From positions 186,001 to 250,000 of the forward strand of contig CANLOV010000004.1 in NCBI GenBank assembly GCA_947492955.1: 64,000 nt of DNA, written 5' to 3'. Each line of letters opens with the position of its first letter. Within the stretch, counting starts at the first letter, position 1. A program made the translations under genes and the position numbers. Of the stretch, positions 4,833 through 63,464 are shown piece by piece. This DNA is from an uncultured Cellulophaga sp. GTDB lineage: Bacteria; Bacteroidota; Bacteroidia; Flavobacteriales; Flavobacteriaceae. Below the pieces are notes generated by a model. It had not been told where the DNA came from and did not search any database. It saw nothing but the letters and a program-made list of their open reading frames with translations.

Positions 4833-4845
4833 AGTGTCTGAGTTT

Positions 4846-5853: not shown

Positions 5854-5947
5854 TATGCTGTCTCTTCTCTTATAAAGAGACAGGTGCAATAAAAATATAC
5901 CCTATTAATTTGTGTTTTTTTATAATACGCGCTAAATTCTATAAAAA

Positions 5948-41689: not shown

Positions 41690-43264
41690 TTAAGGCTTGT
41701 TGATATAGCTATCCCAAAAGCTATATTCTTCTCCCAAAGTGTTGTTTTCTTTATCTTTTAATTCAATAGCTTTCTCTATCATTTCTTTTTTCATTTTAGA
41801 AACAAGGTCTTTGTATTCTGGTAAAAACGATAAGTTTGTGGTCTCCCATGGATCTTTTTTAAAATTAAAAAGTTGGGTAACATGTGAACCCGCATTATAT
41901 TTTCCGTTTTTCCAATGCTTACCATTATTATTTACATATTCAATTAATTTGTAATCGCCTTTTCGGTAGGCTCGCTGAAATTGTTTGTAAGCATGGTATG
42001 TATTATCTCTAACTTGCTTTGTTTCATTTTTAATTACAGGAACCAAACTTTTTCCGTTTACAGATGCTGGTTTAGGTATATGTATTAAATCGCATATGGT
42101 TGGGTATATGTCATGAATATAACTATAAGCACCTAATCTAAGTCCTTTGTTTTTTATATAACCACCAGACAAAACAAAAGGGACATGAATACCATCTTCA
42201 TCGTATACACTTTGTTTTCCTAGTAAACCGTGGTTTCCAACGGCAAGGCCGCTATCACCAGCAAAAACAATAAGCGTATTATCATATTGTCCACTTTTTT
42301 TAAGTGCACTTATTACTTTTCCTATTTGTGCATCTAAATGCGTAATAATAGCATAATAGCTTGCTAAATGTTCTTGGGCAACATCTTTTGTTCTTGGCCA
42401 TGGTCCTAGAGCTTCATCTCTTAAAGTCATATCCCCATTATCAAAAGGATGTTGCTCCATGTATGATGGAGTTAAATTAACTTTTTTGTTTTTGTATTGT
42501 TTTCTATATTTTTTCGGTGCTTGTCTAGGATCGTGCGGAGCATGAAAAGCAACATACATAAAAAAAGGTTGTTCCTTTTTGTAACTAGTAATAAAATTAG
42601 ATGCGTGTTTTGCAAAAACTTCTGAAGTATGTGGGGCTAGTTCTTCTGTACCAGTAGGACCTTTTTTGTCATTTTTTGTAATAGCCCTTTTAGTAATATT
42701 TTTATTTTTATCATACTCTAATAAATAAGCGTCTTTTTTGTCAAATTTTCCAGATGCATCCCAATCCCAAAAAGGCATTCTATAATGATCGGTTAAATAC
42801 AAGCCAACACCCATGATTTTATCTCCAGAATTAAAAGACCGTACCATTGATTGTTTATCTTGGTGCCATTTACCAACAATATGCGAGTAGTAGCCTTCTT
42901 TTTTTAGTGTTTCTCCAAGTGTTGTGTGTGTTTCGGGTATTGTATGACCCTTGCCCTCTAATGTAAATAATTGCCTTCCAGATAATAGCATAGCTCTACT
43001 GGGCATACAAGTAGCACCAGAAAAAGCTCCCATTAGATACGTATTTGTAAAAACAACACCTTCTTTAGCTAGATAGTCTAAATTAGGGGTTTTTACAGGC
43101 ATTCCGCCCAATTCATGAACACCAGTATACCTGTGGTCATCAGTGTAAATAACAACAACGTTTGGCTTTTCTTTTTTTTGAGCTATACTATTTGTAATAG
43201 AAAAGAAACATAGCATAAAGAAGAAAAAAGAATGTGTTTTTTTTATTTTGAATATCGATTTCAT
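41690..43264 (-). CDS. family S1 sulfatase
   Basis: 524 residues, signal peptide ending near ITNSIAQ, so exported. The formylglycine signature is C86-M-P-S-R90 with AMLLSGR after it; calcium ligands D42-D43 lie in YTDDHRYTG and the late site is VFAGDSGLAVGNHG. C86 must be oxidised by a maturase not in the window. It is the last gene of the GH2 - GH28 - GH28 - sulfatase series, 8 bases after the second GH28, so it probably removes sulfate from the same polysaccharide. Substrate unknown; CxPSR sulfatases act on many algal glycans. Confidence 0.9.
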   Translation of the reverse strand: MKSIFKIKKTHSFFFFMLCFFSITNSIAQKKEKPNVVVIYTDDHRYTGVHELGGMPVKTPNLDYLAKEGVVFTNTYLMGAFSGATCMPSRAMLLSGRQLFTLEGKGHTIPETHTTLGETLKKEGYYSHIVGKWHQDKQSMVRSFNSGDKIMGVGLYLTDHYRMPFWDWDASGKFDKKDAYLLEYDKNKNITKRAITKNDKKGPTGTEELAPHTSEVFAKHASNFITSYKKEQPFFMYVAFHAPHDPRQAPKKYRKQYKNKKVNLTPSYMEQHPFDNGDMTLRDEALGPWPRTKDVAQEHLASYYAIITHLDAQIGKVISALKKSGQYDNTLIVFAGDSGLAVGNHGLLGKQSVYDEDGIHVPFVLSGGYIKNKGLRLGAYSYIHDIYPTICDLIHIPKPASVNGKSLVPVIKNETKQVRDNTYHAYKQFQRAYRKGDYKLIEYVNNNGKHWKNGKYNAGSHVTQLFNFKKDPWETTNLSFLPEYKDLVSKMKKEMIEKAIELKDKENNTLGEEYSFWDSYINKP

Positions 43265-43272
43265 TCTTTTTA

Positions 43273-44730
43273 TTATTTAGTAGTGAATGATTTTTTTGTT
43301 TTCCAATTCCAACTGATTGATTTCTTGTATCGCGTTGTGGTTGTTTCGTCTAAAGTGTAATTTGTAACATCATCAAAAATAACAGGTTTACGAATATCTT
43401 CTGTTTGTAATACAAATTCGATATCGTTTATTATTATATCGTCAATATGCCTAGCAAACAAGCCATAAGCCGGTAGTGCTTTAAAATGTATAAACTCGGG
43501 ATAATTTTTTTCTAATTCTTCAACATTATCTACAATAGTTTTCCCCCCACCAGGAAGTTCAACTTTAATATTTTCTATATTAATTTTTCCTATTTTATGA
43601 TTTGGAGTTCCTGTTATTAAAATACCAGAAGGTGGTTGTATTCTAGATTCTTCTGTAGTTCTTGTAGTTGCATTTATGTTTTTAATGGTAATATTATTAA
43701 TGGATCCTACAGATTGCTGCGGAGCATCTCTATACGTTCTTAGGCGTTCTCCTAAACGAATAAAAAGCGGCATATCTACATTGTTCATTTTTATGTTACT
43801 GATGTTAATATCATGAATATTAGCACCATCTACGCTTAACATTTTAATGCCACCTCCTTTAGTGTTGTATATATTGCAATTTTTTACATTTATATTGTAG
43901 AAATCTCCCATGGATTCTGTTCCAAATTTAAGAGCACCCCAATCACTTTTTAATTTGCAATTACTTACATTAATATTATAAGTAGGTAAGGGGCTCGTTG
44001 TTTTAAAACAAATAGCATCGTCTTCTGTATTAATATCGCAATTAGTAATAGTAGCATTATAACTAGAATCTAAATCTATTCCATCATTATTTCTATGAGC
44101 GTGGCTGTAAATACTTATATTATTTACTGTTATATCGTTAGATTGATAAAAATGACAGGTCCATGCTGCTGGCTGTCTTAAATTAATATCTTTAAGTGTA
44201 ATTTGCGATGATTTCACAAATCTTAATAAGAAGGGTCTGTTGTTTCCAAATCCTTTTTTTTGCTCAGGGCTTAGTTTTAGCTCTTTTATTTTTAAACTAA
44301 GGTTTTTTCTTAGAAAAGAAGTTCCGTTACCATCAATAGTACCTTTACCTGTAATACCTATATTTTTTGCATTTTTTGAGCCTATTAAACAATTTCCTCT
44401 TTCTTGTCCAGTAGCATCAACAAATGTGTCTATACTTTTATAATCTAATGGGTTAGAGCTCCCTATTAATTTAGCATTTTCATTAATATGTAATGTTACG
44501 TTATCTTTTAGTAAAATAGTACCACTTATATAATTTCCGTCAGAAATAAAAACAGTGCCGCCTCCATTTTTATAGCATGTATCAATAGCATCTTGTATGT
44601 ATGTTGTATTAACGGTAACCCCATCTCCTTTAGCACCATACTCCTCTATATTATATGATTTTGTTTTATTAGAACAGCTAATTTGTATACTTATTAAAGC
44701 AATTATTGCTATTATTTTTTTTGTGCTCAT
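43273..44730 (-). CDS. GH28-family glycoside hydrolase lipoprotein
   Basis: 485 residues with a lipobox ending IQISC near residue 19, so membrane anchored and exported. Pectate-lyase-type parallel beta-helix starting YNIEEYGAKGDGVTVNT. Catalytic acid regions are NNDGIDLDSS (NxD motif) and TEDDAICFKTT (DD motif). Where classic GH28 enzymes have GHG, this one has SDWGALKFGTES, and the RIK motif reads GGIKML. It probably cuts galacturonic-acid-like or related linkages. 6 bases after the other GH28. Confidence 0.85.
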   Translation of the reverse strand: MSTKKIIAIIALISIQISCSNKTKSYNIEEYGAKGDGVTVNTTYIQDAIDTCYKNGGGTVFISDGNYISGTILLKDNVTLHINENAKLIGSSNPLDYKSIDTFVDATGQERGNCLIGSKNAKNIGITGKGTIDGNGTSFLRKNLSLKIKELKLSPEQKKGFGNNRPFLLRFVKSSQITLKDINLRQPAAWTCHFYQSNDITVNNISIYSHAHRNNDGIDLDSSYNATITNCDINTEDDAICFKTTSPLPTYNINVSNCKLKSDWGALKFGTESMGDFYNINVKNCNIYNTKGGGIKMLSVDGANIHDINISNIKMNNVDMPLFIRLGERLRTYRDAPQQSVGSINNITIKNINATTRTTEESRIQPPSGILITGTPNHKIGKINIENIKVELPGGGKTIVDNVEELEKNYPEFIHFKALPAYGLFARHIDDIIINDIEFVLQTEDIRKPVIFDDVTNYTLDETTTTRYKKSISWNWKTKKSFTTK

Positions 44731-44736
44731 TTTAGA

Positions 44737-46116
44737 CTATTCTGTTAATTTAAATATTTTGTTGTTAGCGTATATGTTACTTATTCTACTATTGATTACA
44801 TCGTTAAAAATAATGGGCTCTCTATTATCTTTTTCTACTGTAGTTACTTGGAAATTATTAATATATAAACCATTTACATGTCTAGCGTATATACCATAAG
44901 CGGGCAATGTACCTACTAAACTAAATTCTGGCCACCATCCTTTTAATGTCTCTAATGTATATTCTTTTAAATCCGTTTTTTTGGCATCTTTTTTAGTGCC
45001 TTTCCCGGAAACCATAAATTGAATATTACTTAGCTGAATATCTGTAATATAATGATTTGGCATACCAGTAATAAAAAAGGCAGAATTCTTGTCTAATTCG
45101 GAATTATCTGCAATAATGCCATTAAATATAAAATGATGCATTGCTTTCATACGGTACATTTCCTCTGGTGCATCTACACATGCTTTTTGTTGCGCAAATG
45201 TCATAAATACAGGTCGTGGTACATTCTTCATAACAAGATTAGAGAAAGTCATATTTTTCATTTCTCCGCCTTCATTTAATTGAATTTTTAGTCCAGAATC
45301 TTGTATATCGTGAAACGTGCAATTGTTTACCGTAACAGATTCTATATTTCCTCTAGACAATAATCCAATGCGCATACCAGCCCATTTGCTTGTAAACACA
45401 CAATTAGTAACTACAATATCTTTACAAGGTTTGTTGGGTAATGATGCTTGTAAACAAATAGAATCATCACTAGTATCAAAAGAGCTATTAGAAACTCTAA
45501 CGTTAGTACAGCCATCAAAATCTAAACCATCTCCATTACCATTTACTCTACTATGTATCTTAATACCATCAACAGCAATATTATTACAATACAACCATGC
45601 AGAAGTCCATGCGGCTGGGTTTTTAATAGTAACATTGTTTATATGTATATTATTACAGTTTAAAAAACGAATAAGCATAGGACGACCAGTTTCATGGCTA
45701 AAGTTTTTTCTGTATCCGTTACCATCAATAGTTCCATGCCCCTCAATAGCGAACGAAGTACTGTTTTTAGCAAATATGAGGCAACGATCCATATGAGGCT
45801 CATTTTTATACATATTTTTATGCGTATCAGTAGTGTAATCTTTTATATCTGGACTCCCCAAAAGAGTTGCGCCATTTTCTATATAAAGCGTTACATGATC
45901 TTTTAAGTAAATAGTTCCGATAAGTATTGTTTTTCCACTAGGTATAATTACACGCCCACCACCATTTTTAGTGCAAGTATCAATAGCAGTTTGTACTGCT
46001 TTTGTGTCTTTTACAATACCATCACCTATGGCTCCATAGGCTAAAACATTATAGTCTTTAGAAAAAGCCTGAAGGTTAAATAGGATTAGTATAAGAAAGA
46101 ATATTTTTTGTTTCAT
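44737..46116 (-). CDS. GH28-family glycoside hydrolase, secreted
   Basis: 459 residues with signal peptide MKQKIFFLILILFNLQAFS and no lipobox cysteine, so probably free in the periplasm. Beta-helix starts NVLAYGAIGDGIVKDTKAV. NGDGLDFDGC (NxD) and TSDDSICLQAS (DD) carry the catalytic aspartates; GHG is replaced by SKWAGMRIGLLS and the late motif reads SGLKIQ. It is about as related to the next GH28 as two family members, not a fresh duplicate. Preceded by a hairpin at 46155-46189. Confidence 0.85.
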   Translation of the reverse strand: MKQKIFFLILILFNLQAFSKDYNVLAYGAIGDGIVKDTKAVQTAIDTCTKNGGGRVIIPSGKTILIGTIYLKDHVTLYIENGATLLGSPDIKDYTTDTHKNMYKNEPHMDRCLIFAKNSTSFAIEGHGTIDGNGYRKNFSHETGRPMLIRFLNCNNIHINNVTIKNPAAWTSAWLYCNNIAVDGIKIHSRVNGNGDGLDFDGCTNVRVSNSSFDTSDDSICLQASLPNKPCKDIVVTNCVFTSKWAGMRIGLLSRGNIESVTVNNCTFHDIQDSGLKIQLNEGGEMKNMTFSNLVMKNVPRPVFMTFAQQKACVDAPEEMYRMKAMHHFIFNGIIADNSELDKNSAFFITGMPNHYITDIQLSNIQFMVSGKGTKKDAKKTDLKEYTLETLKGWWPEFSLVGTLPAYGIYARHVNGLYINNFQVTTVEKDNREPIIFNDVINSRISNIYANNKIFKLTE

Positions 46117-46154
46117 GTTGCAAATTCTTAAAGGAATTTAAATAGCTAAAATAA

Positions 46155-46189
46155 TTGTGGTTACAAAAAATATTAATTTGTAACCACAA
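46155..46189 (-). terminator. hairpin between the GH2 and GH28 genes
   Basis: A 13-bp perfect stem (46155-46167 with 46177-46189), 9-base AT-rich loop, T-rich after it on the minus strand. It may partly end transcription after GH2 or stabilise an mRNA end. Confidence 0.6.
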
Positions 46190-46209
46190 CTCTTGGTAGT
46201 AACTAAAAC

Positions 46210-48705
46210 TTATTTAGTTGTTATTGCTAGTATCTCAGATTCTAAATTGTCTGAACTAGCTGTTATTTTAATAGTACCTGCTTTTTCTGTAGATTTTACA
46301 ATTACTAAGCATTGCCCACTAAATGCTTTTCTATGATTTGCTTTGTGCTCTTCTAAAGAAGCTTGGTCTCCATTACCAACGGCTTCTATAATACCTTCTC
46401 CTTCGATGTTAAAATTAACCAAATTAGAAGCTCTAGGACATAAATTACCATTAGCATCTTCAATTCTTACTGTAATGAAAGAAAGGTCTACACCAGAAGC
46501 ATCAATTGTATTTCTGTCTGCTATTAATTTTACTTTAGCTGGTTTTCCTGCAGTTTTAATTGTTTTGGTTGCAGCTATTTTTCCCTTTTTATAGCCAACA
46601 ACTTTTATTTCACCTGCTTTGTAAGGAACATTCCATGAAAGTCTGTACTTAGATTTATACATTCCTTTTTTAAATCCATTATATTCCGCATGAATCATAG
46701 TATAATCTTTTCCTTTTATTTTTTTACCAAAAGATTTTCCGTTTACAAATAATTCTACTTCATCACAATTTGTATAGGAGTATACAGGGATTGTTTCTCC
46801 TTCTTTACCTTCCCAATTCCAGTGAGGAAGTACATGTACCATAGGTTCTTTTGTCCATTGACTTTGGTATAAATAGAATCTATCCTTAGGGAAACCACAC
46901 ATATCTACAGGAGCAAAATAAGAAGATTTAGAAGGCCAATCGTCGTTCCAATATCCGTTTGTTGAGTTGTCTCTACCACCATAGGGGGTAGGCTCTCCTA
47001 AATAATCGAAACCAGTCCATATAAATTCACCTAAAGAAGTTGGAGATTTTGCTTGCGCATCGAACTCTACATCAGGAGGGTAAGCCCATGCAGGCCCAAC
47101 TGTTTCATCGTGACTAGAAACATGGTTTGTTTCTCTTTTGTGTTTGTATTCTAATGGTAAGTGGTATACACCTCTACTGCTTGTTTGCGAAGATGTTTCT
47201 GAACCATAAAAAATCATATCAGGATTTTGAGCTACAATTTCTGGGTAGTGCGATGGTTTGTAATTAACACCAACAATATCTATCTGGTAAGCTAATTTAT
47301 TTACAAAAGATGCTGGGTAGTAATTAAAACCAGCTGTTGTTGGTCTTGTAATATCTTCATCATGGCAAATATCATTTAATCTTTTAGCTAATTTCCATCC
47401 ATCTTTTTCACTCTGTTCAAGAATTTCGTTACCTATACTCCACATAATTACAGAGGGGTGGTTACGGTCTCTTTTAATCATGTCTCTTAAATCTTTCTCG
47501 TGCCATTGATCAAAGTATTTATGGTAACCATTTGGTACTTTTGCTTTTTTCCATTCATCAAAAGCTTCAGCAATAACAACAATACCTAAACGATCACATA
47601 CTTGCAGCATTTCTGGAGAAGGAGGGTTATGACTTGTTCTTAAGGCATTAACTCCCATACTTTTCATAATTTGCATTTGCCTTTCTTTTGCTCTGTAGTT
47701 AATAGCTGCACCTAAAGGACCCAAATCATGATGCATACAAACTCCATTAAACTCAACAGGCTTGTCGTTTAATAAAAAACCTTTTTTAGCACTAAAATCA
47801 ATAGTTCTAACTCCAAATTCGGTAATGTATTCATCTATTATAACATCTTTTTCGAAAATTTGACTTGTTACAGTGTATAAATGCGGGTTATCTATATCCC
47901 AACGTATAGGGTTTAATATTTCAATTTCCTGAGTTTTTTCAATTTCAGATAATTTATTTATGGCTATTTCTTTAGACTGAAAAGCTATAGTGTTTCCGCT
48001 AGCATCTTTAATAATTGTTTTTAGGGTTTTGTTAGAGTTTGTATTCCCTGTGTTTTTAACTGTAGTTTTTATGTTAACTATAGCTTTATCATTGCTAACA
48101 AATGGAGTTGTAATATAAGTTCCCCATTGTGGTATATGAGTAGAGTTATTGATTTTTAATCGTACATTTCTATAAATTCCTGCTCCTGGATACCATCTTT
48201 CGGATAATAATTCTGGTGCTAATTGTACGGCTATTACATTTTCTTCGCCAAATTTAATATGCTTTGTAAGATCAAACTCAAAACCTATGTATCCATAATG
48301 CCTATCTCCAACATAATTTCCATTTATCCATACTTTAGCATTATCCATAACACCATCAAACTCAATAGATATTTGTTTGTTAATCATTTTTTTATCTACT
48401 GTAAAATGCTTTCTATACCAAGCATGCCCATCTATAGGTAAGCCACCATTTCTTGCATTATTTCTACTATTAAAAGGCAATTCTATGGCCCAATCGTGTG
48501 GTAAATCTAATTTTCTCCATGTGCTATCGTCATAGCTAATAGTTTCTGCATTGGCTAGCGTATCTTTTTTAAAAAGCCAATTTTTATTAAAATTTTCATC
48601 ATCTACATTTGTAATTGATGTTTCGTTAGATTTACAAGAAACAAAAAGAGCAACAGCACAAAGTAATGCTGCCAAAGAAAGTTTCAGTTTGGTGTAATTG
48701 TTCAT
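46210..48705 (-). CDS. GH2-family beta-glycosidase lipoprotein
   Basis: 831 residues; lipobox VSC with C24. Domains in order: GH2 sugar-binding (about 40-185), immunoglobulin-like (about 190-300), TIM barrel (about 305-620), then DUF4982-like and a C-terminal Ig-like domain (about 640-830). Acid/base E427 in MWSIGNEILE and nucleophile E503 in GSETSS. Beta-galactosidase-like, but GH2 also holds mannosidases and glucuronidases, so the sugar is open. First gene of the polysaccharide operon; no SusC/SusD pair or regulator lies nearby. Confidence 0.9.
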   Translation of the reverse strand: MNNYTKLKLSLAALLCAVALFVSCKSNETSITNVDDENFNKNWLFKKDTLANAETISYDDSTWRKLDLPHDWAIELPFNSRNNARNGGLPIDGHAWYRKHFTVDKKMINKQISIEFDGVMDNAKVWINGNYVGDRHYGYIGFEFDLTKHIKFGEENVIAVQLAPELLSERWYPGAGIYRNVRLKINNSTHIPQWGTYITTPFVSNDKAIVNIKTTVKNTGNTNSNKTLKTIIKDASGNTIAFQSKEIAINKLSEIEKTQEIEILNPIRWDIDNPHLYTVTSQIFEKDVIIDEYITEFGVRTIDFSAKKGFLLNDKPVEFNGVCMHHDLGPLGAAINYRAKERQMQIMKSMGVNALRTSHNPPSPEMLQVCDRLGIVVIAEAFDEWKKAKVPNGYHKYFDQWHEKDLRDMIKRDRNHPSVIMWSIGNEILEQSEKDGWKLAKRLNDICHDEDITRPTTAGFNYYPASFVNKLAYQIDIVGVNYKPSHYPEIVAQNPDMIFYGSETSSQTSSRGVYHLPLEYKHKRETNHVSSHDETVGPAWAYPPDVEFDAQAKSPTSLGEFIWTGFDYLGEPTPYGGRDNSTNGYWNDDWPSKSSYFAPVDMCGFPKDRFYLYQSQWTKEPMVHVLPHWNWEGKEGETIPVYSYTNCDEVELFVNGKSFGKKIKGKDYTMIHAEYNGFKKGMYKSKYRLSWNVPYKAGEIKVVGYKKGKIAATKTIKTAGKPAKVKLIADRNTIDASGVDLSFITVRIEDANGNLCPRASNLVNFNIEGEGIIEAVGNGDQASLEEHKANHRKAFSGQCLVIVKSTEKAGTIKITASSDNLESEILAITTK

Positions 48706-53384: not shown

Positions 53385-53424
53385 AAAAAAAAAAGAGATA
53401 CTAATATTAGTATCTCTTTTTTTG
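53385..53424. terminator. intrinsic terminator
   Basis: Long A/T-tailed stem around the ACTAATATTAGT centre (AAAAAGAGATACTAA and its complement), T7 after it. Confidence 0.85.
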
Positions 53425-53673: not shown

Positions 53674-55407
53674 TTGAAATCTAAAGATTTATTTTCTCAT
53701 TTATCCAATTTAGAAGCTCAACTAAGTAGTTTTTCATTTGAAGAATTAACAGCAAAAGAGGCATCTAAACTTAAAAAGTCATTTCAGTCTTTTAAAAACA
53801 GTTTAGATGAAAAAGTTCTAGAAAAATCAATACCAAATAACCAGAAAAAGGTAGTTAAGGTAAAGCAGACGAGCGAAGAAATGCTTATCGCCAATGTAAG
53901 TCACGAAATTAGAACACCGTTAAATGGTATTATTGGTTTTACAGATCTTTTGTTAGAAAGTAAGTTGTCAAAAAATCAATTAGAACACGTAAATGCTATT
54001 CAATCTGCCTCTTCTAATTTGTTAGATATCATTAATGAACTTTTAGAATATTCTAAACTTTCTAGTGGATTAGAGCATTTTGAGTTTACAGATTTTAATT
54101 TTTATAGTATTATAAGAGATGTTATGTTTTTATGTAACACACTTATTTTAGATAAAGATGTAAAGTTAGAAGTAGATATGGATACTAATATACCAGAGGT
54201 ATTAATTGGTGATCCATCTAAATTGTCTCAGATTTTATTAAATCTTATAGGAAATGCTATAAAGTTTGTAGAAAAAGGAGATATACATCTTAGAATAGCT
54301 CTTAAAGAAGAAAAAGAAGGAAATGTTTTATTGGAGTTTGATGTTGTAGATACAGGAATCGGAATCTCAGAAGAAAATTTAAAACATATATTCAAAACTT
54401 TTAATCAAGGAGAACAAAACACCTATATAAAATATGGTGGTTCTGGTTTAGGATTAAGTATTGTAAAGCAGATTGTAGAAACTTTAAAAGGAGAAATATC
54501 TGCCTCTAGTACTTTAGGCGTAGGCACTACATTTAAATTTATTTTGCCTTATAAAAAAGGAAGTAAAGCTAATCTTGTTAAAATAGAGAATCCTCCAAAA
54601 GACCTAAATCAAAAACTAGATGTAGTAAAAAACATGAATATTTTAATTTTTGAAGATAACCCTTTAAATCAAAGGCTTATAGAGCAAAGATTAAAAGTTT
54701 GGGGCTGTAAAACATACGTCTCTGAAAGTGGTGTACATGGTTTAAATATATTAGAAAATAATAAAATAGACCTTGTTTTAATGGATTTAAGAATGCCAGA
54801 TATGGATGGTTTTCAGGTAACCCAAAAAATCCGTAATAATAAAAATATTTACATAAGAAAAATTCCAATTATAGCATTAACAGCAGATTTTTCTATTAAA
54901 GATAAAGAACAATGCCAAAAATATGGTATAAATGACTATGTATTAAAGCCTTATAGTCCAGATGAATTATTGTTAAAACTTACAAAGAACAAAAAAGATA
55001 TGGAGATACATATAGTAGAATCAAAGAAAATAAATCCAGAAAATATGGTAGGTAGTCCTACCGATATTAACCTAGATGAAATCTTAGAAGAATGTTTAGG
55101 AGAAGTAGATTTATTACAAGAGTTAGTTGGTTTATATAAACAAAATGTATTAGAGTTTATAGGAAATATTAAAGTAGAGCTAAAAACCAAAAATTTTAAG
55201 GCGTTAGAATTTGCCTCTCATAAAATAAAACCAGGTTTAGCAATGATGAAAACTTTTAGTTTACACGCAATTGCAGAGGAAATGCATGGAGTATGTAAAA
55301 CCAATAAAGATTTAAAGTATATGGAATTTTTATACAACTGTTTTTTAGATGAGTACCCTGTTGTAGAAAAAGCTATTGATAATGAAGTTAAACGATTAAG
55401 GAATTAG
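53674..55407 (+). CDS. soluble hybrid histidine kinase with receiver and HPt domains
   Basis: 577 residues from a TTG at 53674; the next in-frame ATG would remove the N-terminus just before the H box. Residues 1-70 are a charged helical region with no PAS, GAF or membrane segment. HisKA follows with H77 in NVSHEIRTPLNG; HATPase has N194 in LIGNAIKFV, DTGIGIS and GGSGLGLSIVK; receiver at about 320-435 with D371 in MDLRMPDMDG and K425; HPt at about 465-577 with H516 in FASHKIKPG. The layout is a full phosphorelay (H-D-H) ending, most simply, at the response regulator encoded next. Confidence 0.85.
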   Translation: MKSKDLFSHLSNLEAQLSSFSFEELTAKEASKLKKSFQSFKNSLDEKVLEKSIPNNQKKVVKVKQTSEEMLIANVSHEIRTPLNGIIGFTDLLLESKLSKNQLEHVNAIQSASSNLLDIINELLEYSKLSSGLEHFEFTDFNFYSIIRDVMFLCNTLILDKDVKLEVDMDTNIPEVLIGDPSKLSQILLNLIGNAIKFVEKGDIHLRIALKEEKEGNVLLEFDVVDTGIGISEENLKHIFKTFNQGEQNTYIKYGGSGLGLSIVKQIVETLKGEISASSTLGVGTTFKFILPYKKGSKANLVKIENPPKDLNQKLDVVKNMNILIFEDNPLNQRLIEQRLKVWGCKTYVSESGVHGLNILENNKIDLVLMDLRMPDMDGFQVTQKIRNNKNIYIRKIPIIALTADFSIKDKEQCQKYGINDYVLKPYSPDELLLKLTKNKKDMEIHIVESKKINPENMVGSPTDINLDEILEECLGEVDLLQELVGLYKQNVLEFIGNIKVELKTKNFKALEFASHKIKPGLAMMKTFSLHAIAEEMHGVCKTNKDLKYMEFLYNCFLDEYPVVEKAIDNEVKRLRN

Positions 55408-55453
55408 TATAAAACAGACGATTAAAAGCCCAAATCCCCCAAATTCCCCTTAA

Positions 55454-55825
55454 ATGAATAACCTACAACTGTTACTAGCAGAGGATGATAACCTCTTAGC
55501 TTCACTTTTAAATTATCGTTTAAAAAAAGAAGGCTATAATGTTTCTATAGCCGCTAACGGAAAAGAAGTAAAAGAATACTTAAGCACTAATATTCCAGAT
55601 ATTATTGTTAGCGATATTATGATGCCTTATTTATCTGGCTTAGAATTAATAGATTTTGTTCGTAAAGATTTAAAATATAATACTCCAATAATTATAATTT
55701 CTTCTGCAGGAAATGAAGAAAATGTATTAAGTGCTTTTGAGTTAGGTGCTAATGATTTTATAGCAAAACCAGTAAATCCATCAGAATTAATAGTGCGTGT
55801 AGCACGAGAATTAAATAAAGTATAG
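55454..55825 (+). CDS. single-domain response regulator
   Basis: 123 residues: receiver domain only. D11-D12, D54 in IVSDIMMPYLSG, a serine in IIISSAGNEEN and K105 in DFIAKPVNP. No output domain, so it must act by protein contact. It follows the hybrid kinase by 46 bases and its TAG overlaps the GTG of the HEAT protein gene by one base, suggesting it receives the phosphate and passes the signal to that protein. Confidence 0.88.
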   Translation: MNNLQLLLAEDDNLLASLLNYRLKKEGYNVSIAANGKEVKEYLSTNIPDIIVSDIMMPYLSGLELIDFVRKDLKYNTPIIIISSAGNEENVLSAFELGANDFIAKPVNPSELIVRVARELNKV

Positions 55826-58350
55826 TGAAAATTATAAGTTTTACATACTATAATATAGCATTAATAAATGCGCCTAAAATCCACACAAATTTATTGTGGG
55901 ATTTAACCATACTATTTGCTGTAATTGGAGTTATATACTTTACCACAATTTTCTTTTTTAGAAATAAAATAGGGGCTAATTCTAAAAAAGTAGTGCAAAT
56001 AAAAAAAGAGCTAAGCCCAATGATTAGCGAATTTTTATTTTACGAAGGAGAAGAAGGAACAAAAGAAGAAAGAAGAACTTATGTTAACTTAAAAATAGAA
56101 GTAAGAGAGTTAATAAAAGACCAATTTCACAGGAAAATATTATCAGAAATTTTATTAGATCTACAGAAAGATGTTTCTGGTACTACCAAAAAAAGACTTT
56201 TTAAATTATATAAAGATTTAGGCTTACATCAAGATGCTTTTAATAAACTAAAGAGTTGGCGTTGGGAGGTAGTTTCAAAAGGAATTTTAGAACTAACAAA
56301 AATGCATGTAGACGAAGCTTATAGTTTTATTACTAAACATATAAACGATAGAAGAAGTGTAGTTCGTAAACAAGCAGAAATTGCAATAGTTACTTTAAGA
56401 AAAGAAGGTATTAACTATTTTTTAGATAATACACGAAACAAGGTGTCGCAATGGCAGCAGCTAAAATTATTAGATGTTATTAGAAATACTGAGGATTATA
56501 AGCCACCACGTTTTAAAGCTTGGTTAACATCTAAAAATAAGGACGTTGTGTTATTTTCTTTACGATTAATAAAACATTATAACCAAAGTGATGCTAGAAC
56601 TTCTATTGTTGAACTTGTAAAGCATAAAAACAAGCAAATAAAAGAAGAAGCAATAGATTGTATTAAAAAATTTAATATAACAGAAGCAATAGATGTTTTA
56701 AAAACAGTTTTTAGAAAAAACGATGTGCACATTAAGTTATTAATACTAGATGCAATTGGTAGTTTAGGCTCTGAGAATGATATTGAATTCCTTAAAAAAA
56801 TCCATAAAAAAGAATCCAATTTTAATATTAAAAGTAAAGCATTAGGTGTTATTAATACAATTATGCCAGATACTATATTACCTACAGAGGGCATAGAGGA
56901 GTTTGCAAATAAATTAGACGAATTAGAAAAAAATACTGTAACAGAAGATTATTGGAAACAGAAAGAAATTAATGTTGACAATAGCCTTATTAATGAAAAT
57001 GATATTAAGGTTGATGAATCTGAAGATGAGATTTTTAATAAAGAAGATGTAGATACATTAGAAGAAGTTAAAGATTTAATGATTGAGGATACGTTTGAAA
57101 CAGATGAAATTGTTGAAGATTTTATCCCAGAGCAAGTAGATCATACTAAAATAGATGTAACAGAAGAAGAGGCTTTAAATCAAATTTTAAATGATACAGA
57201 TATAGAAGTATTAGAACTAGAAGATGAAGTTTATGTCCCTGTTTTTAGTGACGATGATATAGAAGCAACAGCTTTCTTGCCCGTAGTTACAGCCTATGAT
57301 ACAATATCAGAAGAAATAGATGAAGTGTCTAATGATGTTATAGAAGAAAATGAATCTCTAGAACAAGAAGATAACATAGAAAATATAATACCGGAAGAAG
57401 ATTTCTTGCAGATAGATTTTATTTTAAAAGATCAGGAAGAAGATATCGAAAGTAATCCTATAAATGAAACTATTGATATAAAGAGTTATGAAAATATAAA
57501 TCATTATTCTTCATTTTTTGAGAAAGACGATTATAATAAAACATTATTATTAGATACTATTGAAGATGCTAAAGACGAGAAAGATATACCCTTATTAAAA
57601 GAGATTCTTGAGCAAGAAAGCAATAAACTAATACGTGGTAGAGCATGGGAGATATTAAAAGATATTTCTAACGAAGAAATAGAATATTACAGAGTTGATA
57701 CGCCTAATGAAGAAAACGTTGATTTACAAAATGCAGCAATGAATAGTATTTTTTATCAGCTTTTTCAAGTAAGCGATCACGAGTGTAAATTAATGTTATT
57801 AGATGAAATACTAGAAATAGGAGATGCTAAAGAAGTTGTTTTCTTAAAATCATTATTAGATGATAGTAATAAAGAAATAAGAATAAAAGCATCAACTATA
57901 ATTAAAGAAATACAAAAACGTAATAACAATTTAGAAGAAGAAGAGGTATCTGTAGAAGAAGATATTGATAGTATTTTAAATAAGGAATTAAAGCCATTAA
58001 AAGCGGTTAATTTAGATACTGAAGAAGACTTAAACTATGCTAAAGAAGTAGTTTTTGTTCCTAAAGAAGATGTAAAAGAAGAAGATGTTACATTTAATAT
58101 AAAAGATTCTAAAGATTTATTACCATTAGAGTTTTGTTTTGTATTAGACAGCTTAGATATTGAGTTGCCAAAGCCTTTTAGTGTTTTTGATATTGATTTT
58201 GAGCTAAACGAAAGAAAAGCAGAAAAAAAGGAAAACGAACAAGAAAATACCGAGGAAACACCGCAGCCAGAAGAAAGTAAAAAAGAACAATCTTTTATAG
58301 ATCAGATTATTTCTTTATCATCAAGAATTAGAGGTAAATCTAATGGATAG
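55825..58350 (+). CDS. membrane-anchored HEAT-repeat protein with acidic middle
   Basis: 841 residues, start GTG overlapping the previous stop. One membrane helix at about 24-45 (LTILFAVIGVIYFTTIFFF), so the large part is cytoplasmic. HEAT-like helical repeats at about 150-345 (RRSVVRKQAEIAIVTLRKEG, SKNKDVVLFSLRLIKHY) and again about 565-700 (NKEIRIKASTIIKEIQK). Between them, about 355-560, lies a strongly acidic, low-complexity stretch. It is probably a scaffold between the response regulator and the synthase that follows (8-base overlap). No catalytic motif seen. Confidence 0.7.
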   Translation: MKIISFTYYNIALINAPKIHTNLLWDLTILFAVIGVIYFTTIFFFRNKIGANSKKVVQIKKELSPMISEFLFYEGEEGTKEERRTYVNLKIEVRELIKDQFHRKILSEILLDLQKDVSGTTKKRLFKLYKDLGLHQDAFNKLKSWRWEVVSKGILELTKMHVDEAYSFITKHINDRRSVVRKQAEIAIVTLRKEGINYFLDNTRNKVSQWQQLKLLDVIRNTEDYKPPRFKAWLTSKNKDVVLFSLRLIKHYNQSDARTSIVELVKHKNKQIKEEAIDCIKKFNITEAIDVLKTVFRKNDVHIKLLILDAIGSLGSENDIEFLKKIHKKESNFNIKSKALGVINTIMPDTILPTEGIEEFANKLDELEKNTVTEDYWKQKEINVDNSLINENDIKVDESEDEIFNKEDVDTLEEVKDLMIEDTFETDEIVEDFIPEQVDHTKIDVTEEEALNQILNDTDIEVLELEDEVYVPVFSDDDIEATAFLPVVTAYDTISEEIDEVSNDVIEENESLEQEDNIENIIPEEDFLQIDFILKDQEEDIESNPINETIDIKSYENINHYSSFFEKDDYNKTLLLDTIEDAKDEKDIPLLKEILEQESNKLIRGRAWEILKDISNEEIEYYRVDTPNEENVDLQNAAMNSIFYQLFQVSDHECKLMLLDEILEIGDAKEVVFLKSLLDDSNKEIRIKASTIIKEIQKRNNNLEEEEVSVEEDIDSILNKELKPLKAVNLDTEEDLNYAKEVVFVPKEDVKEEDVTFNIKDSKDLLPLEFCFVLDSLDIELPKPFSVFDIDFELNERKAEKKENEQENTEETPQPEESKKEQSFIDQIISLSSRIRGKSNG

Positions 58351-59773
58351 TGGCTTCTTAAATATTTTTTTAGAATACATAAACATTACTTTTTTAGTGT
58401 TTACAATAGTACTGTTTTCTATGTTTACTATTATGGGGTATTTATCTACAAGAAACTCTATTCACTATAAAAATAAAAATAGTTTTGGCGATTTATCTAA
58501 GGTAATGGCATCTCCATTGGCACCTAGTATTACAATTATAGCACCAGCCTATAATGAAGGATTAACTATTGTAGAAAATATACGATCATTAATGTCTTTA
58601 CAATATGTAAACTACGAAGTAATGGTGGTTAACGATGGTAGTAAAGACGATACGCTTCAAAAAATGATTGATGCTTATGATCTTATAAAAATAGAGCAAG
58701 AAATAGACCCAAATTGGAAATCTAAACCTATTAGAGGTATTTATAAATCTAAACACAAAGCATTTTCTAAATTAACAGTTATAGATAAAGAAAATGGAGG
58801 TAAGTCAGATGCATTAAATACAGGCATGGCACTTTCTACTAATACTTATGTAGGCTGTATAGATGTAGATTGCTTATTATTACCAGAGGCCTTATTGCAT
58901 GTAGTAAAATCGTTTTATCAACGAACAGAGAAAAAAGTTATTGCGGTAGGCGGTGTGATACGTGTGGCAAATTCTTGTATAATAGATGGTGGTGAGTTAG
59001 AAGAAATACGTTTGCCTAAAAGTTGGTTAGCAAAATTTCAGCTATTAGAATATACGCGGTCTTTTATTTTAGGAAGAATGGCATGGGGCAGAATAGATAG
59101 TTTGTTAATCATATCTGGAGCATTTGGTTTTTTTGATAGAGAAATAGCAATGGCTGTTGGGGGTTACGATACTGGTACTGTTGGCGAAGACATGGAAATA
59201 GTGTTTAAAATGAGACGCTATATGCACGATAGAAAAGAGGCATATACTGTAGAATATATTCCAGATTCGTTATGTTGGACAGAGGTGCCAGAAGACCTAA
59301 AAATACTGTTGAACCAAAGAGATAGATGGGCTAGAGGTAATTTAGAAACATTGTTTAAGCATAAGGATATGTTTTTTAATTCAAAATATGGTCGCTTAGG
59401 ATTAGTAAGTTATCCATATTGGTTTTTTTATGAGTGGTTAGCTCCATTACTAGAGTTTTTTGGTTTTTTTACGATTATAATTTTTGGTTATTTAGGAATT
59501 TTAAATTGGAGTTTTTTTATTGCTATAACTGCAGCAGTATATATGTTCTCCATTATGTTTTCTTTTTATGCTATTCTTTGGGATGTATATTCTTATAATG
59601 AATATACAAAGACTAAAGACATATTAATATTAATGTTTTGTGCCATTATAGAACCTATAACTTTTCATCCGATAGTGGTGTATGCTGCTATTAGAGGTAA
59701 TTACAAGAAACTATTTAAAATAAAATCTGGATGGGGTTCACAAGTACGAAAAGGATTTGCAAAAGCATCTTAA
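58343..59773 (+). CDS. processive family 2 glycosyltransferase
   Basis: 476 residues. The catalytic motifs of PgaC/hyaluronan/cellulose-type synthases are present: D98 in VVNDGSKDD, D174-V-D176 in CIDVDCLL, E282-D283 in VGEDMEI, and Q325-R-D-R-W329. One membrane helix at about 15-33 and four or so after 360 form the translocation channel. It should polymerise a beta-linked glycan at the inner membrane and extrude it. PilZ domain absent, so regulation is likely through the neighbouring phosphorelay rather than direct c-di-GMP binding. Confidence 0.9.
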   Translation: MDSGFLNIFLEYINITFLVFTIVLFSMFTIMGYLSTRNSIHYKNKNSFGDLSKVMASPLAPSITIIAPAYNEGLTIVENIRSLMSLQYVNYEVMVVNDGSKDDTLQKMIDAYDLIKIEQEIDPNWKSKPIRGIYKSKHKAFSKLTVIDKENGGKSDALNTGMALSTNTYVGCIDVDCLLLPEALLHVVKSFYQRTEKKVIAVGGVIRVANSCIIDGGELEEIRLPKSWLAKFQLLEYTRSFILGRMAWGRIDSLLIISGAFGFFDREIAMAVGGYDTGTVGEDMEIVFKMRRYMHDRKEAYTVEYIPDSLCWTEVPEDLKILLNQRDRWARGNLETLFKHKDMFFNSKYGRLGLVSYPYWFFYEWLAPLLEFFGFFTIIIFGYLGILNWSFFIAITAAVYMFSIMFSFYAILWDVYSYNEYTKTKDILILMFCAIIEPITFHPIVVYAAIRGNYKKLFKIKSGWGSQVRKGFAKAS

Positions 59774-59782
59774 AATAAAGTA

Positions 59783-62134
59783 ATGAATACAAGTCAAAAA
59801 GATAGATATACCTTAAAGCACTATACAAGATTGATTATTTCTTTCTTTATAAGTTTAGTATTGCTTACTATTTATCAGTATACAACGCTTTATTATAAAG
59901 CGGTTGTAGATGTTATTTTGGGCTCTAGTTTTTTTCTAGCGGTATTGCATCAATTAGGATTTGCATCACTAGTCGGAATTATTTTTTCATTTTCATTTAA
60001 TTTCTGGGAAAAATTAAGGCCAACCTATGGTTTTAACCTTGTTTTTGTAATTCTAATTTTACTATTAATAATAGAGGCAATGCTTATTAGTTATTATTGT
60101 ACAGCGTTAGTTCCTTTAGGGTCAGATTTATTAGGTTATAGTTTTGCTGATATTAAATTAACTATAGCTAACTCTGGAGGAATCTCTATTTCAATGGTAC
60201 TTGGTCTTGTAGGTATAATTGGGGTATTCTTTGGTTTGTACAAAGTAACTTCTAAATATTACCATTACATAAGTAGTATGTATCCTTTTACAATTATTTT
60301 GTTTAGCATGTTTGTAATGACACTCTTTGTGGCAGGAAAACCAATAAACCAAAATAAAACACAATATTTAGTTACAAACATGTACCAAACATCTACAGAA
60401 GATGTTTCTTATAAAGCAGATGTAGAATACCCATTAATTAAAGCACAAAAGGTAGAAAATGTACTTGGTGAGTATTTTGAATTAAAGGAAAAAAAGCCAA
60501 ATGTTGTTTTTATAATGGTAGAGGGCTTAGGAAGAGATTTTGTTGGGGAAGGAGCAGAGTACGGCGGTTTTACTCCTTTTTTAGATGATTTGACAACAAA
60601 ATCGCTGTATTGGGAAAACTGTTTAAGTAATACAGGACGAACTTTTGGTGTATTACCATCATTAATGGGGTCCTTACCATTTGGAAAAAGTGGCTTTATG
60701 GAATTAGAAAAATATCCAAATAAACTTACACTGTATAGTATTTTAAAGAATAACGGTTATCACACATCCTTTTACCAAGGAACCAATAGTTCTTTTGATA
60801 ATGTAGATCGTTTTTTATTAAGCGAAAATGTAGATTTTGTTTTAGATAAATCTGGTTTTGGTAATAAATATAAATTGCAAGAAGAAGATGCGGCGGGCTC
60901 TTCTTGGGGTTATCCAGATAAAGAATTATTTAAAAAGAGTATGAGTTTGCCTAGAGCTGCAGAACAGCCTAGAATGGAGGTATATATGACTATTAGTACA
61001 CACGAACCTTTTTTGCCTCCAAAGCAAGATTTTTATGAAGACAAAGTAAAACAGTTACTTACTAAAAGTTCTCATGATAGTAGAGTTAAGAAAATAATTA
61101 AAAAGAATGATAATGTTTTTGCAACATTATTATATACAGATGATGCTTTAAAATATGTTTTTGAAGAATATAAAAAACAACCTAATTATGATAATACAAT
61201 ATTTATTGTTACCGGTGATCATAGATTAATACCAATACCGCAAAGAAATAACATAAGTCGTTTTCATGTGCCATTAATTATGTACAGTCCTATGCTTAAG
61301 ACTACAAGAAAGATGAGCGCTGTAAACTCACATTTTGATGTTACTCCAACTTTATTAGCATTATTAGAAAGTAAGTACGAGCTTAAAATGCCTAAGAAAG
61401 TAGCATGGATGGGTAATGCATTGGATATGAATAAAGAGTTTAGATGTACAAAAGATATTCCTTTAATGCGTAATAAGAACGAGTTAAAAGAGTTTATTAC
61501 AGGAGAAAAAGTATTCTCGGATGGTAATACTTATGAGATTGATGAGAATATGGATTTAGGTTCTTCATTTGGAGGTTCTAAAGGAGAAGCCAAGTTAAAA
61601 GCCTTTAAATCTATGAACGCTTATGTAACTACTAATGATAAAATTATACCAGATAGTTTAGCTATTTTTTCTGTTCAGAAAGAATTATTTACAGATACAG
61701 AAACCATATGGATTAATAGCGTATACAATGGTCAAGATTCGGATAAAGGTTACTTTATTGCTCGTGATTTAGCGTTTAACAAAAAATTTGATAAGGCATT
61801 ATTACTGTGTAAATATATTTTATCGAATGTTCCTAGCCATATAGATACTAAAATACTAACAGGTAGAGTTAATGTCTGGAAAGGTAATTATAAAATATCT
61901 ACAGAAATATTAAAAGAATGTATTAAAATGAATCCTAATTATATAGATTCTTACTCTGCATTGTTTGATGTTTATTTCTGGTCGGGAAAACATAGAGATG
62001 CCTTAGAATTAATAGAATTAGCAGAACAAAATAGTTCTAGTGTTAACGATATAGCCGATAAAATAGCAAGAGCTAGGAGAGAAGCTAAAAAAAGAGGAGT
62101 AACAATCCAAACCAACCATACCCATAACCATTAA
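59783..62134 (+). CDS. LtaS-like membrane phosphotransferase with C-terminal TPRs
   Basis: 783 residues. Five membrane helices up to about 185, then an alkaline-phosphatase-fold domain (about 235-560) with E247 (IMVEGLGRD), likely nucleophile T287 (NTGRTFG), H407 (STHEPF), D479-H480 (VTGDHR) and H495, matching the metal and nucleophile sites of LtaS-type phosphoglycerol and phosphoethanolamine transferases. Residues about 655-770 form TPR-like helices, not usual for LtaS. It faces the periplasm and probably decorates the glycan. Lies 9 bases after the GT2 gene. Confidence 0.85.
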   Translation: MNTSQKDRYTLKHYTRLIISFFISLVLLTIYQYTTLYYKAVVDVILGSSFFLAVLHQLGFASLVGIIFSFSFNFWEKLRPTYGFNLVFVILILLLIIEAMLISYYCTALVPLGSDLLGYSFADIKLTIANSGGISISMVLGLVGIIGVFFGLYKVTSKYYHYISSMYPFTIILFSMFVMTLFVAGKPINQNKTQYLVTNMYQTSTEDVSYKADVEYPLIKAQKVENVLGEYFELKEKKPNVVFIMVEGLGRDFVGEGAEYGGFTPFLDDLTTKSLYWENCLSNTGRTFGVLPSLMGSLPFGKSGFMELEKYPNKLTLYSILKNNGYHTSFYQGTNSSFDNVDRFLLSENVDFVLDKSGFGNKYKLQEEDAAGSSWGYPDKELFKKSMSLPRAAEQPRMEVYMTISTHEPFLPPKQDFYEDKVKQLLTKSSHDSRVKKIIKKNDNVFATLLYTDDALKYVFEEYKKQPNYDNTIFIVTGDHRLIPIPQRNNISRFHVPLIMYSPMLKTTRKMSAVNSHFDVTPTLLALLESKYELKMPKKVAWMGNALDMNKEFRCTKDIPLMRNKNELKEFITGEKVFSDGNTYEIDENMDLGSSFGGSKGEAKLKAFKSMNAYVTTNDKIIPDSLAIFSVQKELFTDTETIWINSVYNGQDSDKGYFIARDLAFNKKFDKALLLCKYILSNVPSHIDTKILTGRVNVWKGNYKISTEILKECIKMNPNYIDSYSALFDVYFWSGKHRDALELIELAEQNSSSVNDIADKIARARREAKKRGVTIQTNHTHNH

Positions 62135-62141
62135 TTAGATA

Positions 62142-63464
62142 ATGCATACCAAATACCTATATAGTATTTTATTTTTCGGATTTATCTGCTTTTACTGTAA
62201 TAGTCAAGATACATCCAATAATGTATCATACACCAAAGCATATAATTTAGCTTATGAAGGCAAGCATAGAGAAGCTAAAGATATCTTAGTACAAATTGTA
62301 GCCAAAAACCCAACAGATACAAAAGCACGTTCTTTATTAGCTAGTACGTATAGTTGGAGTAGACAATATAATAAGGCTAGAAATGAATTTAATAAGCTTA
62401 TTTCAAAAAATAAAAATAACAGAAGAGTATGGATCGCTGCAATAAAAAATGAGTTGTATGCAAAAGAAGATGCTATAGCATTAGGAATTGCAAACAAAGC
62501 CTTAATGTATGTGCAAAACGATAAAGAAATAGAAAGGTTAAAAGAGATTACTTTAAAAAGAATTACATCTAAAAAATATCCAAAATTAGGATGGTATAAT
62601 AAAGAAAGTAGCGTGCAATCTATAAAAGATTCAAAAAAAAAGTCTAAAGAAAAACCTTTAGAGAAAGAAAGTTTAGCTACTAAAACAATAGATACTTTAG
62701 ATGTTAAAACACCAACTTATAAAGACCCTCTTAATAATAGATTTTCTATTAGAAACTTAGTTACAGTTTTTAATGATCGGTACGACCCAATGTTTTATTC
62801 TAGTATATCTTATAAAAGGCAGACTTTGGCGGGGAGTATTATTCCTAGAATAAATTATAGTCATCGCTTGGGTAAAGATGGAGTGCAGTACGAATTAGAT
62901 TTTTACCCTAAGTTTTCTAAGCGCTTTTATGCGTATTTAAATTATGGTTTTTCTAATGCTTCTATATACCCTAACCATAAGTTTGCAGGAGATTTATATA
63001 CCAATTTACCAGGAGCATTTGAGTTTTCTGCTGGTGGACGCTATATAGGTTTTAAAACAAGAAATGTGGTCTCTATTACCAATTCTTTTGGCCATTATAG
63101 AGGGAACTATTATTTTTCTTTACGCTCGTATATTACACCTAGACCCAATAACTTAACTAGAGTATCTGGTAATCTTTTAGTACGTAAATACTTAAAGGAT
63201 GCAGACAATTACTGGGGAGTTAATTTTGGTATGGGAGTTTCTCCAGAGTTACGACAAATAATTTCTGGTGATGTTGTATTAGCAGAAACACAGTTGTTTA
63301 TAGAATCGCAACGTTTAAGCTTAGAATATCAATTTACAGGAAAAAAGAAAAAATCTAATATCTATAAAGCAAATATTGCGGTTAGGAGGCAAGAACAAAT
63401 TATAAACTCTAAAAACTTTTTATGGGCTGTATCTGCAGGAATAACTTATAATGTTAAGTTTTAG
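62142..63464 (+). CDS. TPR plus outer-membrane beta-barrel protein (YaiO-like)
   Basis: 440 residues with a signal peptide ending near CFYCNS. TPR repeats about 28-145 (KAYNLAYEGKHREAKDIL, ARSLLASTYSWSRQYNKAR), a basic linker (about 155-195), then a beta-barrel about 200-440 with alternating strands (SAGGRYIGFKTRNVVS, LEYQFTGKKKKSNIYKANIAV). It resembles a small PgaA, which combines periplasmic TPR and a porin to export polysaccharide. It lies 7 bases after the LtaS-like gene and closes the cluster. YaiO assignment is from recognition. Confidence 0.75.
   Translation: MHTKYLYSILFFGFICFYCNSQDTSNNVSYTKAYNLAYEGKHREAKDILVQIVAKNPTDTKARSLLASTYSWSRQYNKARNEFNKLISKNKNNRRVWIAAIKNELYAKEDAIALGIANKALMYVQNDKEIERLKEITLKRITSKKYPKLGWYNKESSVQSIKDSKKKSKEKPLEKESLATKTIDTLDVKTPTYKDPLNNRFSIRNLVTVFNDRYDPMFYSSISYKRQTLAGSIIPRINYSHRLGKDGVQYELDFYPKFSKRFYAYLNYGFSNASIYPNHKFAGDLYTNLPGAFEFSAGGRYIGFKTRNVVSITNSFGHYRGNYYFSLRSYITPRPNNLTRVSGNLLVRKYLKDADNYWGVNFGMGVSPELRQIISGDVVLAETQLFIESQRLSLEYQFTGKKKKSNIYKANIAVRRQEQIINSKNFLWAVSAGITYNVKF

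Follow-up and report, generated by a model that had tools for sequence, protein, structure and literature searches.

The window, which is the whole 64,000-nucleotide stretch analyzed here, comes from an uncultured Cellulophaga sp. (contig CANLOV010000004.1, positions 186,001 to 250,000). It contains a run of six genes that are predicted to encode a phosphorelay, a HEAT-repeat protein, a membrane glycosyltransferase of family GT2, an LtaS-like protein and an outer-membrane barrel. The source genome is 3.87 Mb in size and 99.81% complete. Features were assigned from open reading frames together with Pfam and NCBIfam matches, as follows (window positions, then strand; domain and residue numbers are those of the protein):

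53674-63464, +: the six-gene run
53674-55407, +: hybrid histidine kinase, 577 aa, TTG start, with HisKA (70-132), HATPase (179-294), REC (323-435) and Hpt (483-547) domains
55454-55825, +: single-domain response regulator (the receiver), 123 aa, with phospho-acceptor D54, and K105
55825-58350, +: HEAT-repeat protein, 841 aa (HEAT_2; AlphaFold model)
58343-59773, +: membrane GT2 with processive-type motifs, 476 aa
59783-62134, +: LtaS-family protein (alkaline phosphatase superfamily), 783 aa, with the PF00884 domain at 239-528
62142-63464, +: TPR and YaiO outer-membrane beta-barrel protein, 440 aa (PF19413, TIGR04390)

The junctions between the six genes, read 5' to 3', are +46, -1, -8, +9 and +7 bases, the largest gap being 46. 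This bears out a preliminary description of the same DNA, which pictured a one-strand run with gaps of 46 bases or less and some overlaps, and whose account of the domain make-up also proved essentially right in the Pfam and NCBIfam matches.

In the kinase, neither a hydrophobic segment (at the hydropathy threshold used) nor a sensor domain (in the Pfam scan) was found. One hydrophobic segment, at about 19-47, is present in the HEAT protein, whose AlphaFold model consists of a helical HEAT solenoid (about 80-346), a low-confidence linker (about 353-560) and a second helical solenoid (about 569-720). In the GT2, the motif residues are D98, D174xD176, E282-D283 and Q325xxR328W329, and hydropathy marked one segment at the start, several clustered towards the C-terminal end and, at borderline level, residues 170-188. 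The LtaS-like protein has hydrophobic segments within 17-189 and retains E247, T287, H407, D479, H480 and H495; its catalytic E/T/D/H set and its fold place it in the alkaline phosphatase superfamily. The fold matches LtaS, and YejM/PbgA is among the top fold matches, the PbgA match extending over the membrane part too, but with a root-mean-square deviation of 15.7. The preliminary description had called this protein an LtaS-like transferase with TPRs; the LtaS type stood, and the TPR-like tail is weak (TPR_19 17.4 bits, cut-off 25). The YaiO barrel scored above both cut-offs (PF19413, 212.5 bits against 23.9; TIGR04390, 171 bits against 32). Sequence searches of the HEAT, GT2 and YaiO proteins against solved structures returned just short GT2 and designed-repeat matches, with none for YaiO. 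Hyaluronan synthases and the BcsAG3B6 complex were among the Foldseek matches; because the LtaS-like domain filled the structural re-alignment list, that list says little about the GT2 half.

Conservation of the gene set and of the relay

We examined a family sample of 60 genomes, one per genus with the window's own included, and found LtaS-like matches at E 1e-20 in 25 of them, full-length in 11 besides the window's own. All 11 relatives, which belong to different genera, hold the order receiver-HEAT-GT2-LtaS-like-YaiO. A second, named collection comprised at least 80 loci; five whose genomes already had a locus in the family sample were removed, leaving 75. Among the 75 loci listed, the GT2 gene was present in 74, HEAT in 71, YaiO in 71, the receiver in 68 and all five in 65, and nine of the loci are cut close by. 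The preliminary description had staked its proposal on conservation of the six-gene block in other genomes, and the five-gene order in 11/11 relatives, with all five genes present in 65/75 of the loci listed, upholds it. The 8-base overlap between HEAT and GT2 genes also recurs, in 47 of the 82 loci where it was measured. The nearest LtaS-like relatives, among the matches listed from named records, are uncultured Flavobacteriaceae and Maribacter, then Zobellia; Zobellia uliginosa and Maribacter species are examples of culturable environmental carriers.

We also examined a phylum sample of 395 Bacteroidota genomes, with thresholds of E 1e-60 for the LtaS-like family and 1e-90 for the GT2 clade. 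The GT2 clade was present in 92 genomes and the LtaS-like family in 38, all of them among the 92 (kinship ignored). At 37 loci from 35 of the 38 genomes, we found a nearby GT2 in 31, YaiO in 34, receiver in 24 and HEAT in 23, with all five at 11; some divergent HEAT genes escape the profiles (Pfam recognized those scanned in L185, L188 and L189), which in part explains the low last count. Across the samples, the LtaS-like gene has a YaiO-type gene in its neighbourhood in 11/11 family loci, 71/75 of the named loci listed and 34/37 phylum loci. In 12 of the 37 phylum loci, GT2 and LtaS-like domains form a single polypeptide of 1134-1270 aa with GT2 first (Pfam on L180). Of the 7989 proteins scored in a search with a fused protein, 2089 reached E 1e-60, and the best 120 of the 2089 have both domains. 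Three changes between the fused and the separate form are needed on the LtaS tree, and fusion occurs on two distant parts of it. At nine phylum loci (L176, L177, L180, L181, L182, L183, L185, L190 and L192), an opposite-strand protein of 389-395 aa is encoded beside the LtaS-like gene; Pfam matched nothing in those scanned, from L176, L180 and L185.

The GT2 clade also occurs elsewhere. We examined 40 further GT2 loci, of which 35 belong to genomes that are not among the 38 LtaS-like carriers; the gene context of the clade was checked at the loci examined rather than in all 92 genomes. HEAT lies directly upstream in 38 of the 40, with an unlabelled 363- or 383-aa gene in the other two, and nearby genes include a receiver in 34, YaiO in 29, a DUF4838-cluster gene in eight and an LtaS-like gene in one. 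One HEAT-labelled protein, of 273 aa in L199, had no Pfam match. Because receiver-HEAT-GT2, often with YaiO, occurs without an LtaS-like gene, we conclude that the LtaS-like enzyme is one accessory of a broader platform made up of receiver, HEAT and GT2. In loci lacking an LtaS-like gene (L211, L213, L214, L223, L224, L230, L231 and L232), YaiO is followed by the DUF4838-cluster gene; Pfam confirmed DUF4838 in the two scanned, L211 and L223, with a weak NAGLU_N match in L223. This association hints at an N-acetylhexosamine polymer, and the DUF4838-cluster protein could possibly be a chain-trimming hydrolase. At one locus (L234, genome G200), a receiver-HEAT-GT2-LtaS-YaiO unit is directly followed by a HEAT-GT2-YaiO unit with no LtaS-like gene in view.

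The run encodes a His-Asp phosphorelay set, namely HisKA, REC, Hpt and a second REC, with phospho-sites intact. The phospho-His of Hpt is invariant in 79/79 aligned domains, and receiver D54 and K105 are present in 97/97 aligned rows, in support of the phosphorelay in the preliminary description. In the window copy, the Hpt domain scores 20.9 bits, below the Pfam cut-off of 24.6. Upstream of the receiver at 79 loci, we found a hybrid kinase with Hpt in 61, an Hpt without kinase core in 16 and, by the scoring used, neither in two, so that Hpt is encoded before the receiver in 77 of 79; short Hpt genes passed the Pfam cut-off in L039, L041 and L046 (26.3-27.5 bits), and L042 fell just below. Given the 16 loci with Hpt but no kinase core and the invariant His and Asp residues, we conclude that the conserved item is the predicted Hpt-to-receiver step, and not the kinase itself.

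Cyclic di-GMP (c-di-GMP) drives most of the well-studied polysaccharide synthases of this type. PilZ, GGDEF and deacetylase domains had no match in the six proteins (Pfam, E 0.01). Among relatives, L228 has a receiver gene (4633-6195) ahead of its GT2 unit in which Pfam finds GGDEF together with two REC stretches, and because of it the systems of some relatives may be linked to c-di-GMP. The earlier statement that any PilZ or c-di-GMP link is missing thus holds for the six window genes and may not extend to L228. A 541-aa gene of L229 is a further candidate of this kind.

The LtaS-like protein and its likely donor

We scored active-site residues E/D247, T/S287, H407, D479 and H480 in 121 usable LtaS-like rows, which are the 129 rows minus five duplicates and three short ones. 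The residues are kept in 96 rows and fail in 25, the latter comprising one clade of 22 together with L097, L098 and L107. Within the clade, H407 is replaced by K in 18, D479 by S or T in 21 and H495 by R or K in 20, with H480 retained in 21; D339 is N in 16 and F338 is L in 19. Because the six residues themselves defined the "intact" comparison set, they are bound to be conserved in it; D339N and F338L are independent of that selection. GT2 motifs are complete in every untruncated row (119 of 122 rows). The preliminary description had the LtaS-like enzyme decorating the glycan. With 25 of 121 proteins lacking the scored residues, that wording is not valid for every member, and the window copy is intact.

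Five pairs of closely related degenerate copies, three of which are drawn from L119, L122 and L124 (the last being Maribacter vaceletii), gave dN/dS values of 0.098-0.175, so the LtaS-like protein is still under selection there; dN/dS was saturated in the sampled intact pairs, leaving no like-for-like ratio for these values. Pairs within the degenerate clade at GT2 identities of 0.88-0.92 have LtaS-like identities mostly of 0.52-0.61, with three pairs at 0.74-0.78, and 12 sampled intact pairs at GT2 identities of 0.86-0.88 have 0.70-0.81. By these identities, the LtaS-like protein is diverging faster after active-site loss than in the sampled intact lineages at similar GT2 distance. The three degenerate genomes of the family sample had no second LtaS-like match at 1e-20. 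Parsimony on a quick tree, on which long branches meet, gave four loss changes, at least three of them forced by starred branches. In approximately unbiased (AU) tests, a single origin with the big clade was not rejected for L097 (p 0.264) and was borderline for L107 (p 0.0507). The active site was thus possibly lost more than once, as parsimony suggests and the AU tests do not secure. With active-site residues lost, GT2 motifs intact and close pairs under purifying selection, we conclude that the LtaS-like protein probably also has a non-catalytic role.

The preliminary description had left the tag as either phosphoglycerol or phosphoethanolamine. The host genome encodes one CDP-alcohol phosphatidyltransferase (PF01066) and one phosphatidylserine decarboxylase (Psd type). 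The PF01066 protein has PssA as its best model, at 100.7 bits (cut-off 107), and reaches 27.6 of 109.1 bits with PgsA; a PgsA search of the host genome found only this PssA-type protein, at 23.4 bits (cut-off 109.1). In a control, the PgsA model gave matches in 13/14 genomes and exceeded its cut-off in 6/14. The single PF01066 match is therefore taken as a stronger argument against a predicted PgsA than the PgsA model itself. We also examined 28 of the 46 other LtaS-like carriers and found a single CDP-alcohol phosphatidyltransferase gene in 11 and two or more in 17. Ten of the 11 were scanned; all were best matched by PssA, two of them above its cut-off, and all ten have the LtaS-like catalytic residues. 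Because a PssA/Psd route is present and no route to phosphatidylglycerol (PG) was detected, phosphatidylethanolamine (PE), rather than PG, appears to be the donor at hand. Of the two tags, phosphoethanolamine is the likelier and phosphoglycerol is disfavoured. In an excerpt of one taxonomy paper, Rhodothermus has abundant phospholipids (diphosphatidylglycerol, PE, PG and phosphatidylcholine), called unusual for aerobic Bacteroidetes, and Bacteroides has mainly PE and little PG (PMC5167729). That excerpt lends weak support to a PE donor.

Proposed mechanism, comparison with known systems and rival explanations

In our best reading, the locus encodes a synthase-dependent polysaccharide system that is gated by a phosphorelay and lacks c-di-GMP domains, with polymer, tag and gating as predicted features. 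The kinase would hand phosphate to the lone receiver by way of Hpt, and the receiver would act on the membrane-anchored HEAT protein. The HEAT protein would in turn gate the GT2, in place of the c-di-GMP and PilZ of cellulose synthase. The GT2 would polymerise a sugar, possibly an N-acetylhexosamine, threading it across the inner membrane, and the LtaS-like protein beside the synthase exit would transfer a phospholipid head group to the emerging chain. The TPR-YaiO barrel would carry the chain across the outer membrane. From the lineages with active-site loss, we infer that the periplasmic LtaS-like domain may also guide the chain without catalysis. We give a probability of roughly 0.5 to the proposal that the six genes together serve phosphorelay-switched synthesis, likely phosphoethanolamine tagging and export of a surface polysaccharide.

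Several points weigh against this proposal. Polymer, sugar, tag and relay control are all predicted from sequence. The HEAT model is poorly confident beyond the solenoids (mean predicted local distance difference test score 62.5, predicted template modelling score 0.38), and a YaiO profile gave no significant match to E. coli YaiO (E 2.2). By the profiles used, just 11 of the 37 phylum loci have all five genes together. The sequence of the LtaS-like protein is nearer that of OpgB (23%), which transfers phosphoglycerol, than that of BcsG. With the PgsA model above cut-off in only 6/14 controls, a divergent PgsA could escape it, and with two or more CDP-alcohol phosphatidyltransferases in 17/28 carriers, some of these may make PG.

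We compared the proteins with 11 chosen E. coli proteins rather than the proteome. The GT2 was nearest PgaC (29%, 90.4 bits, 2e-29), with 22.9 bits to BcsA, 8.4 bits (E 0.19) to OpgH and 25% identity to YaiP. Membership in several known systems was rejected. For poly-N-acetylglucosamine (PNAG; Pga/Ica), the PgaC/IcaA model TIGR03937 gave 146.4 bits (cut-off 422.3). For type II Bcs cellulose, the BcsA model TIGR03030 gave 28.7 of 699.1 bits and PilZ was unmatched. For LtaS, NF053595 gave 64.3 of 970 bits, and for osmoregulated periplasmic glucans (OPGs), the MdoH model gave 21 of 328 bits and two OpgB models 49.6 of 572 and 40.4 of 574. Even with filters off and E as high as 10, a profile of 12 LtaS-like sequences did not match BcsG of E. 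coli.

In architecture, the closest working model by analogy would be BcsA with BcsG. E. coli type II Bcs (BcsA, BcsG, BcsC) likewise has a membrane GT2, a head-group transferase docked on the synthase and a TPR outer-membrane barrel. The excerpts of two reports describe the membrane part of BcsG docking on the BcsA synthase, and their authors suggest that its periplasmic domains may help to steer the chain to the outer-membrane channel (PMC11379886, PMC11470070). Unlike Bcs, the window run has no PilZ match and no BcsB, carries a phosphorelay and HEAT protein, and in some relatives has the transferase fused to the synthase; fusion could replace docking, and the phosphorelay with a HEAT adaptor could replace c-di-GMP. 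The PNAG system shares a TPR and outer-membrane barrel and the nearest GT2 among the proteins compared, but the barrel here is YaiO-type, the partner is LtaS-like and no PgaB-type deacetylase/hydrolase domain matched in the six genes (the rest of the genome was not searched). The PgaC/PgaA-like logic without PgaB in the preliminary description therefore stands as a resemblance, and the Pga cut-off was missed. The E. coli yaiO-yaiX-yaiP-yaiS locus also has a YaiO barrel gene near a GT2 gene, but with an acyltransferase pseudogene and a deacetylase in the LtaS-like place and no receiver or HEAT gene annotated. YejM/PbgA/LapC, which acts in enterobacterial lipopolysaccharide control, is likewise a membrane-anchored member of the LtaS-like superfamily, but matches weakly in sequence and has no GT2 link; YejM/PbgA is not known to have transferase activity.

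That last fold match is one reason to consider that the LtaS-like protein is mainly structural everywhere, docking on the synthase and guiding the chain, with catalysis secondary or absent even in the window copy. The 25 rows without scored residues, the clade-of-22 substitutions at H407, D479 and H495, the intact GT2 motifs and the low dN/dS of degenerate pairs would fit such a role. Retention of five scored residues in 96/121 would be odd without catalysis, however, and the protein diverges faster once they are lost, so we regard this as unlikely. If the protein instead moves phosphoglycerol from PG, like LtaS or OpgB, the product would be a glycerophosphate-decorated glycan. Its best curated models are indeed LtaS and OpgB types, all far below cut-off; OpgB is its nearest E. 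coli protein among those compared, its fold is that of LtaS and the PgsA model is limited. Against this stand the sole PssA-type CDP-alcohol phosphatidyltransferase in the host and in 10/10 scanned single-gene carriers, and the alignment of QGTNSSFDNV here with HGNTQTFWNR of B. subtilis LtaS, which we take to be part of the glycerol-phosphate pocket. We regard phosphoglycerol transfer as quite improbable.

A periplasmic glucan resembling OPGs, with OpgB-like modification and YaiO not acting as exporter, is in our judgment more improbable still. The pairing of a GT2 with an OpgB-like transferase recalls OpgH and OpgB, and according to an excerpt of one report E. coli OPGs bear both phosphoglycerol and phosphoethanolamine (PMC3818809). 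However, this GT2 is far from OpgH and nearer PgaC, no OpgG-type domain matched in the six genes, and an outer-membrane barrel gene of YaiO type lies near the LtaS-like gene in most loci. That the genes are chance neighbours, or an operon of unrelated tasks, is hardly credible: named sampling is dense in few genera, and the five duplicated family genomes were dropped before counting, but the order in 11/11 genera, the GT2-LtaS fusion on two distant tree parts and the 38/38 co-occurrence refute it.

Returning to the phosphorelay-gated system with a phosphoethanolamine tag, we tentatively extend it to the phylum, a reading that we consider less likely than not. Receiver-HEAT-GT2 would be a phylum-wide class of phosphorelay-gated synthases, mostly without c-di-GMP. 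The LtaS-like protein would be a transferase and chain guide, and in whole lineages it would have turned into a pseudo-transferase without metal (His-to-Lys, Asp-to-Ser/Thr, His-to-Arg/Lys), which binds or steers the polymer but leaves it untagged. If the Hpt-receiver-HEAT module before the synthase acts as proposed, it is another switch for polymer secretion. The fusion and the natural series of active-looking and inactive-looking transferases let tagging and guiding be separated by comparing relatives, a question that arises for BcsG too. The regulatory front end and the pseudo-transferase series are what is unusual here for synthase-dependent polysaccharide secretion. Among the matches listed from the open PMC literature, to which the search was confined (subscription papers and preprints fell outside its scope), the gene set was undescribed.

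Flanking features

Between a thioesterase gene and the run lies one further feature, assigned by consensus match alone:

53388-53423, no strand assigned: terminator-like AT-rich hairpin

The frequency of such matches is not above that in shuffles, and sigma-type and Bacteroidetes promoter scans likewise gave TANNTTTG no more commonly than in shuffles. In relatives, an opposite-strand gene of 287 aa, sigma-70-like by eye, often stands directly after the run (for example, L009 6683-7546); in the window's genome, a 420-aa gene stands between the YaiO end of the run and this gene. Farther away in the window, 30013-31557 (-) encodes a receiver fused to a PglZ domain, an architecture like that of PorX, and 41690-48705 (-) holds in tandem a sulfatase (SGSH_C type), two GH28 genes and one GH2 gene, which look like a cluster for degradation of pectin or a sulfated glycan.

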